In this document: positions 22,506 to 23,736 of the stretch, in pieces
Layout of the letters: each line of letters begins with the position of its first letter
Numbering within the stretch: the first letter of the stretch is position 1
Assembly (NCBI GenBank): GCA_014382295.1
Contig: JACNJZ010000074.1
Span: forward strand, 1-35,173
DNA: 35,173 nucleotides
Reading direction: 5' to 3'
Source of the DNA: Candidatus Desulfobia pelagia
GTDB lineage: Bacteria; Desulfobacterota; Desulfobulbia; Desulfobulbales; SURF-16
Made by a program: the position numbers and the translations under genes
The notes under the pieces: generated by a model
Database searches by the model: none
Seen by the model: the letters and a program-made list of their open reading frames with translations, nothing else
What the model was told of the DNA's origin: nothing

Positions 22506-23069
22506 ATGGCTGCGAAAAAAAGAAAGAAAAAGCGTTTTCAAATACAGTTTGAACTGGGCCTGGGTGGGGTACTCAGTCTCGGTGTCGTCAGCTTTTGTAT
22601 TTTTCTGTGGATGTTCCTTTTAGGAATCTGGGCCGGGCAAACAGTTCTTCTCCCTTCCTCCGGTGACAATAAGCCCCAGGCCATACTGCAGATGGCTTCA
22701 GATATCTGGCAATATAGCAAGAAGGGAATAGAATCCATCCCTGTGCCGGATGGTCAGAACATCTTCCCTTTCCCTGAACTGGATCGAAGCCTGGAGCATC
22801 CGGAAGAGGCTTCTCTTTTTTCCCTGCAGGTCGCGTCTTTCCAGGACAGGAAAGAGGCGCATCGTTCGGTTCTGGGGTGGCAGGCTCGTGGTCATGAAGC
22901 TTTTTTTCTTTTGCCGGAAGAGGACTCTGATCTGTACAGGGTTTTTATCGGCAAGTTTGAAAAGCTGACGGAGGCAAATGCAATGGTTGCCGTTCTTGAA
23001 AACGATGAGAATGTCAGGGCATACATTACTCTGCTTCCTGAATCTGAAATATCAAAATGGAAACAGTAA
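22506..23069 (+). CDS. SPOR-domain inner-membrane protein
   Basis: The 187-residue protein has a very basic cytoplasmic N-terminus (KKRKKKR), one membrane helix at about residues 18-42, a periplasmic linker and a C-terminal SPOR domain (FSLQVASFQDRKEAHR through YRVFIGKFEKLTEANAM, about 100-185). SPOR domains bind denuded septal peptidoglycan, so this is probably a cell-division or envelope protein. SPOR genes often follow argS in Desulfobacterota (from memory). No ribosome site is visible because the heptamer arm ends 6 bp upstream of ATG 22506. Confidence 0.88.
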   Translation: MAAKKRKKKRFQIQFELGLGGVLSLGVVSFCIFLWMFLLGIWAGQTVLLPSSGDNKPQAILQMASDIWQYSKKGIESIPVPDGQNIFPFPELDRSLEHPEEASLFSLQVASFQDRKEAHRSVLGWQARGHEAFFLLPEEDSDLYRVFIGKFEKLTEANAMVAVLENDENVRAYITLLPESEISKWKQ

Positions 23070-23070
23070 A

Positions 23071-23238
23071 TATAATTTGTAACTGTTCAGGTAGGGCTAT
23101 AAACTACCCTAAACTCAGTAGGGTAAATGTTTAGGAGTGCCTCATATTTGTTTATTTGGGACTTCGAAGCATACTCGTGCTATTCGAGAAGGCCAAAATA
23201 AGCGAAGATGGGGTGCTGCTGAACAGTTACTATAATTT
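23071..23238. mobile_element. MITE-like element with 12-bp TIRs and 8-bp target duplication (IS66-like ends)
   Basis: GTAACTGTTCAG (23079-23090) and its exact complement CTGAACAGTTAC (23219-23230) bound a 152-bp element flanked on both sides by the direct repeat TATAATTT (23071-23078 and 23231-23238). GTAA ends and 8-bp duplications are the features known for IS66-family elements. No transposase is encoded. Inside are a small hairpin (GTAGGG/CTACCC, 23091-23109) and a long imperfect one (23136-23168 with 23183-23217, about 33 bp arms). It lies directly after the stop of the SPOR gene and 22 bp before the GNAT gene. Confidence 0.87.
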
Positions 23239-23259
23239 TAGATCGTACATTAATGAACC

Positions 23260-23736
23260 ATGATTAGAAATGCACAAATGAAAGATGTGAAGGCAATGTA
23301 TACTTTGCTTCACCATTTCGCAGATAAGGGACTGCTTCTTGGCAGGTCTCTAAGCTCCCTGTATGATCAGCTTCGTGATTTTCAGGTGTTTGTTGAAAAA
23401 GATGATGCTGGAGAGCAGATTGTCGGCCTCTGCGCCCTGCATATCAGCTGGGAAAATCTTGCGGAAATCCGTTCGCTGGCTGTAAAGGAAACATCCCAGG
23501 GGAAAGGTGTCGGCACCCAGCTTGTTGAAGCATGTATGGTTGATGCAAAAGCCCTCGGAATTAAGCAGGTGTTTACCTTAACGTATCAGCCGAATTTCTT
23601 TAAAAACCGTGGTTTTCAACCTGTAGATAAAAAAGAATTGCCCCATAAGGTCTGGAGTGATTGCATTAATTGCCCGAAGTTCCCGGATTGCAATGAAGAA
23701 GCCATGATCTGGAACAGCTCCGGACGTGAGGCATAA
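23260..23736 (+). CDS. GNAT N-acetyltransferase, N-acetylglutamate-synthase-like
   Basis: A 158-residue single-domain GNAT protein. Acetyl-CoA-binding motif A is VKETSQGKGVGTQLV (about residues 80-94), preceded by the LAEIRSLAV strand; the tail ends in a Cys-rich segment (CINCPKFPDCNEEAM). This arrangement matches the short ArgA-type N-acetylglutamate synthases that in many anaerobes make the first arginine intermediate. Neighbours fit: argJ lies one gene downstream and argS upstream. No ribosome site is apparent, and the MITE ends 22 bp before the ATG. The substrate is inferred. Confidence 0.82.
   Translation: MIRNAQMKDVKAMYTLLHHFADKGLLLGRSLSSLYDQLRDFQVFVEKDDAGEQIVGLCALHISWENLAEIRSLAVKETSQGKGVGTQLVEACMVDAKALGIKQVFTLTYQPNFFKNRGFQPVDKKELPHKVWSDCINCPKFPDCNEEAMIWNSSGREA

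Follow-up and report, generated by a model that had tools for sequence, protein, structure and literature searches.

Structured non-autonomous transposons (MITEs) that are moved in trans are a well-known kind of element, with Correia, ERIC, RUP, and BOX as examples. The Correia elements of Neisseria (CREE/NEMIS) occur in size classes of 155 and 107 bp and combine a long stem-loop, terminal inverted repeats (TIRs), and a target-site duplication (TSD) with intergenic positions and dozens of copies; their TIRs are 24 bp long with TA termini (PMC2229807). RUP of Streptococcus pneumoniae measures 107 bp and has TIRs like those of a resident insertion sequence (IS), its IS partner being IS630-Spn1, while BOX from the same species is modular, and both have strongly paired consensus folds (PMC3049150); the two are found mainly in pneumococcus and S. 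mitis. The enterobacterial ERIC/IRU sequences are 127-bp mobile palindromes with a wide taxonomic spread, a structured RNA, and orientation-dependent effects on mRNA (PMC2229807, PMC10969869). Chunjie, from Geobacter uraniireducens, is a bacterial MITE with a full length of 235 bp that is present in tens of copies (PMC10969869). Among autonomous elements, the ISBst12 group of the IS66 family includes ISDge4, which transposes and has ends GTAACTGCTCAGCA / GTGACTACTCAGCA with an 8-bp direct repeat (PMC12898284).

The window analysed here is a stretch of 35,173 nucleotides from Candidatus Desulfobia pelagia (Desulfobulbales), and the element at its positions 23071 to 23238 belongs to a family that resembles each of these systems in part. 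The TIR of the family is close to the ISDge4 ends; the ISBst12 group is autonomous and encodes a transposase, whereas the MITE is noncoding and has a core that bears no relation to the interior of the IS. Compared with the Correia elements, the ends are different, the short form of the MITE begins at an inner TIR, without the 5' module, and no promoter was found in the element. The family is order-wide, in contrast to RUP and BOX, whereas ERIC/IRU have other ends and hosts, without IS66-type ends, and Chunjie, compared by its published description, differs in full length. In the open-access literature, no MITE is described in this order and none is tied to IS66; the family is apparently undescribed. 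It is set apart by its order-wide spread, its nested inner end, and its one-stranded covariation.

The layout of 23071 to 23238 is TATAATTT, GTAACTGTTCAG, 128 bp, CTGAACAGTTAC, and TATAATTT, and its features are as follows.

23071-23078, no strand: left target-site duplication TATAATTT, an 8-bp perfect direct repeat
23079-23090, + strand: outer 5' TIR GTAACTGTTCAG, perfect complement of 23219-23230 and equal to both ends of the L108 IS66 element
23091-23122, + strand: remainder of the 5' module, variable, with small predicted hairpins; missing from core-only copies
23123-23134, + strand: inner TIR copy GTAAATGTTTAG, start of the core, with two mismatches against the family TIR; the start of core-only copies with a perfect TSD
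23123-23230, + strand: 108-bp core, a long hairpin with compensatory changes and a fold favourable on the + strand only
23219-23230, - strand: 3' TIR (CTGAACAGTTAC on the + strand), perfect complement of the outer 5' TIR
23231-23238, no strand: right target-site duplication TATAATTT, an 8-bp perfect direct repeat

The transposon proper spans 23079 to 23230 (152 bp), with the 5' module at 23079 to 23122 and the core at 23123 to 23230. An earlier sequence-only reading had described a complete 152-bp MITE with perfect 12-bp TIRs, perfect 8-bp direct repeats, IS66-like ends, and no coding capacity, and the present data agree on all of these points. No ORF of at least 60 aa overlaps the element (the longest one touching it has 35 aa), and DUF6444-type IS66 elements of the same order carry GTAACT(G/A)TTCAG ends, which is the TIR of the family, along with 8-bp duplications. 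The element is short and without a transposase gene, it has TIRs, a TSD, and dispersed copies, and its insertion is polymorphic between relatives; it is a real, complete non-autonomous transposon. The same reading placed an internal hairpin at 23136 to 23217. The hairpin itself was recovered, but its extent was not: the arms of the window copy are 23123 to 23165 and 23188 to 23230, longer than had been described because the TIR is repeated internally at 23123 to 23134. Folded as RNA, the element reaches -62 kcal/mol, compared with -37.0 ± 4.2 in dinucleotide shuffles (z = -5.9).

Searching the organism's own genome for these ends, as the reading had proposed, revealed many more copies. At least 38 blastn places match the element, and at least 110 TIRs occur with no more than one mismatch, versus 20 for a reversed control pattern. 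The closest copy (L002) is 95% identical, lies elsewhere, and has its own, different duplication. Across both catalogues, at least 119 distinct full-length copies have a perfect 8-bp TSD (55 + 64): in the first, with 117 non-redundant copies, the full unit is flanked by an 8/8 TSD in 55 and a 7/8 TSD in 17, and a second, non-overlapping set adds 64 copies with 8/8 and 15 with 7/8. At control positions the TSD match was at most 6/8 over 603 comparisons, counted before strand duplicates were removed. The TSDs of the family are AT-rich (22% G+C).

The SPOR-GNAT gene order around the insertion is kept in relatives, and ten of these relatives, among them a member of the same genus, lack the element there. 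At the locus of this congener the flanking proteins are 72% and 84% identical and the intergenic region is short, without the element. A covariance-model search of the loci from the ten relatives and of the window locus gave the window's copy as its sole match. The expected empty orthologous site was thus found as absence of the element and not as the exact target, since the intergenic DNA of the relatives is too diverged for a single TATAATTT to be aligned base by base. That the same 152 bp might be present at this site in distant relatives with no other copies is excluded by the ten element-free loci together with the dispersed copies. In L080, from one relative, the orthologous intergenic region upstream of the GNAT gene is taken up by a long run of degenerate short repeats (TTGGGTTTGTTGAG variants and their complement).

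The dominant unit of the family in the non-redundant catalogues is about 150 to 158 bp long with a perfect 8-bp duplication. It comprises a 5' module of 44 to 46 bp (full range 43 to 48 bp), which begins with the outer TIR, and a core of 107/108 bp (in the catalogues mostly 107 to 111 bp) with the inner TIR at its start and the 3' TIR at its end. In the first catalogue, the side of the core that the 5' module occupies never varies among copies with a good duplication. A few copies consist of the core alone and are flanked by a perfect duplication of their own (L004, L011, L026, L170, and one from the second set); the inner TIR is thus able to act as a transposon end too. The TSDs around both forms suggest two usable left ends, with movement either as the full unit of about 150 to 158 bp or, rarely, as the 107/108-bp core. 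This nested inner end provides a natural experiment on end recognition by IS66-type transposases, which has been described as insufficiently characterised (PMC12898284). Alifold finds no conserved hairpin in the 5' module, whose folding shows a weak average excess (-6.0 versus -4.5 kcal/mol; 23 of 72 with p ≤ 0.1).

Comparison with IS66 elements disclosed autonomous counterparts of the ends. L108 comes from a different family within the order and is an IS66 element of 2414 bp with GTAACTGTTCAG ends, equal to the window TIR, and a perfect 8-bp duplication; it carries a transposase gene (DDE_Tnp_IS66 + DUF6444) together with a DruA-domain gene. The latter is the second ORF of this element (L108:1240-3653; Pfam PF14236, whose name comes from the Druantia defence protein). 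A search with the L108 transposase returned several elements of 1.6-1.7 kb, each with a single IS66 transposase ORF. L230 and L231 have GTAACTATTCAG ends and perfect 8-bp duplications, and the L230 transposase is IS66/DUF6444 with the NCBIfam assignment IS66. One copy of the MITE in the own genome (L022) has 20 terminal bp in common with one IS66 end in L229. Overall, the MITE and the IS66 elements have only 12 to 20 terminal bp in common, and the core therefore did not arise by simple deletion within IS66. The notion of a full IS66 element with the same ends therefore holds within the order (L108, L230, L231) and fails in the own assembly, where the sole assembled IS66 (C85, L061) has GTAAGCGGTTA ends; this difference rules it out as the parent, and it belongs to a different subgroup from the likely partner of the MITE. 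The L061 element (L061:116-2576) contains three ORFs, and a short tandem repeat (TTTAGGCAC) adjoins it on one side. We call the putative partner group ISBst12-like from its resemblance to ISDge4 (similar ends, single transposase ORF), and the 152-bp element was most likely moved in trans by a DUF6444-type, ISBst12-like IS66 transposase.

The core hairpin was evaluated in 46 full-length copies. Seventeen of its 31 consensus pairs are changed on both sides, these both-sided changes extend far inward of the TIRs, and 97.1% of cells are paired, compared with 31 to 48% in slid controls. Compensatory cells numbered 140 versus 38.8 in shuffles (0/500). Alifold of the 46 copies gave -32.5 kcal/mol for the + strand versus -5.2 kcal/mol for the - strand, and the + core was more stable in 45 of the 46. 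Departures from Watson-Crick pairing in the first alignment were 85 G-U versus 10 A-C. The second alignment consists of copies from loci found by the model search plus the window copy and is largely, not strictly, independent, as a few rows may repeat places of the first set or close relatives. Here the + strand was more stable in 30 of 30 copies, and strand-neutral pairs, picked by Watson-Crick complementarity alone, departed as 86 G-U versus 12 A-C. Such an excess of G-U argues against a double-stranded constraint or self-correction, because both would treat either departure alike. The element seems selected as a folded single strand; the strand asymmetry could partly reflect strand-biased mutation. 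The folded strand would be a transcript or a single-stranded DNA intermediate, and we lean to RNA. The strand-specific covariation of the predicted fold also strengthens the earlier suggestion that the hairpin may form a structured RNA. Rfam gave no match at the gathering score, only sub-threshold chance matches. One-stranded covariation amounts to a testable claim rarely made for a MITE, namely an evolutionary dependence on a folded single strand.

The reading that we favour, with a probability of about 0.88, is a MITE with ISBst12-like IS66 ends, most likely mobilised in trans, with two left ends and a core probably acting as a folded single strand; its termini, TSD, dispersed copies, absence from the orthologous site, and end identity to real IS66 elements are direct observations. 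A DUF6444-type, ISBst12-like IS66 transposase would act in trans on the ends of the element, and insertion would duplicate 8 bp of AT-rich target between the SPOR gene and GNAT-secA-argJ. Either left end, the outer or the inner TIR, could be used, so that the full unit or the core would move, and the core hairpin probably works at some step as a folded single strand, be it a transcript or a single-stranded DNA intermediate. Mobilisation by an unrelated transposase with similar end recognition and 8-bp duplications is improbable. It would fit the lack of a matching IS66 in the own assembly or the congener, the several MITE-bearing relatives without any IS66 match, and the short stretch of terminal sequence held in common. 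With the own draft at 97% completeness and split into 224 contigs, an unassembled matching IS66 copy is possible. Against this rival, 12 identical bases at both ends and the same TSD length recur in several IS66 elements of the order, and some same-ended IS66 elements sit in MITE-bearing genomes (G025, G129, G150, and G176).

A conserved regulatory RNA or attenuator of GNAT-secA-argJ, maintained by the host and with merely incidental repeat-like ends, would account for a strong, covarying, strand-specific fold and for the sense orientation in the window. We find it hardly credible, and as the origin of the element it is already refuted: ten relatives with the same gene order lack the element here, dozens of copies elsewhere have their own TSDs, and no terminator-like or promoter-like site lies inside it. 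A local regulatory effect gained after insertion is possible. The stem could also be a by-product of palindrome self-correction, or of a transposase binding both arms as double-stranded DNA, in which case no folded strand would matter. MITEs often have palindromic ends, and transposition demands that the TIR portion of the stem be retained, but the one-sided departures in both alignments and the both-sided changes well inside the TIRs make this explanation doubtful. Returning to the folded single strand, the narrower claim that the folded + strand (RNA or a single-stranded DNA hairpin) is required for transposition or persistence of the family is a tentative one that may well prove wrong. If true, an IS66 system of the DDE type would have carried a structure-dependent parasite with two nested left ends through a whole bacterial order.

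Upstream, the element is bordered by a SPOR-domain gene, the stop codon of which ends 1 bp ahead of the left TSD; downstream lie a GNAT gene (NCBIfam N-acetyltransferase NF005840), secA, and argJ. The sequence-only reading had named an arginine-synthase gene as the neighbour, which is mistaken; argS, the arginyl-tRNA synthetase gene, precedes the SPOR gene and is one gene further upstream of the element. The window copy lies in sense orientation between co-directional genes, and the same genes are close together in the congener. A terminator had also been suggested between them. There are 0 terminator-like sites in 22900 to 23400 and no T-tract after the stem, and the element is not an intrinsic terminator; promoter-like sites were not found inside it either. 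A SPOR-GNAT read-through transcript would carry a very stable predicted fold and might be processed there. By likeness to Correia and ERIC elements, for which RNase processing has been reported (PMC10969869), it is a reasonable guess that an RNase may cut the transcript between the SPOR and GNAT genes.

In copies L011, L070, L088, and L178, a long incoming frame stops exactly on the TAA of the terminal GTAAC at the 3' end, so the TIR supplies the stop codon. An orientation bias at gene ends was seen in 76 elements with a TSD (stops within 10 bp, 16 on the 3' side versus 3 on the 5' side, p = 0.004) and was dropped after 81 further elements gave 15 versus 9 (p = 0.31). A cluster of stop codons 30 to 35 bp upstream in the 76-element set was gone in the 81 further elements. 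Sense insertions were not overrepresented with respect to genes (++ 22, -- 36, divergent 26, convergent 15); acting in cis within host mRNAs is therefore not an obvious reason for the fold.

At E ≤ 0.001, the family covariance model matched 172 of the 258 genomes sampled from the order, covering 56 of 69 genera. Among 395 genomes sampled across the phylum, 13 had matches at E ≤ 1e-4, ten from the same order and three from outside it (G321, G325, G578). Among the latter, L282 in G578 has three matches with a best E of 2e-20 and L290 in G325 has six with a best E of 3e-8, and both may reflect horizontal transfer. Scanning the species-genome collection for the exact pattern returned at least 101 stretches; among the matches listed, most carry the labels Desulfobulbaceae, Desulfobulbus, Desulfurivibrionaceae, Desulfocapsa, or Desulforhopalus, and the rest are unplaced Deltaproteobacteria/Proteobacteria and one Desulfobacterales. 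Plasmid and viral carriers were set aside, with no match in the plasmid collection or the viral contigs. The family is a major component of the genomes of this sulfur-cycling order, with visible effects on intergenic DNA. In the draft genome of one relative (G002), many MITE copies are located at contig ends (C227, C210, C136, C169, C150), which suggests that the MITE repeat breaks short-read assemblies in Desulfobulbales.
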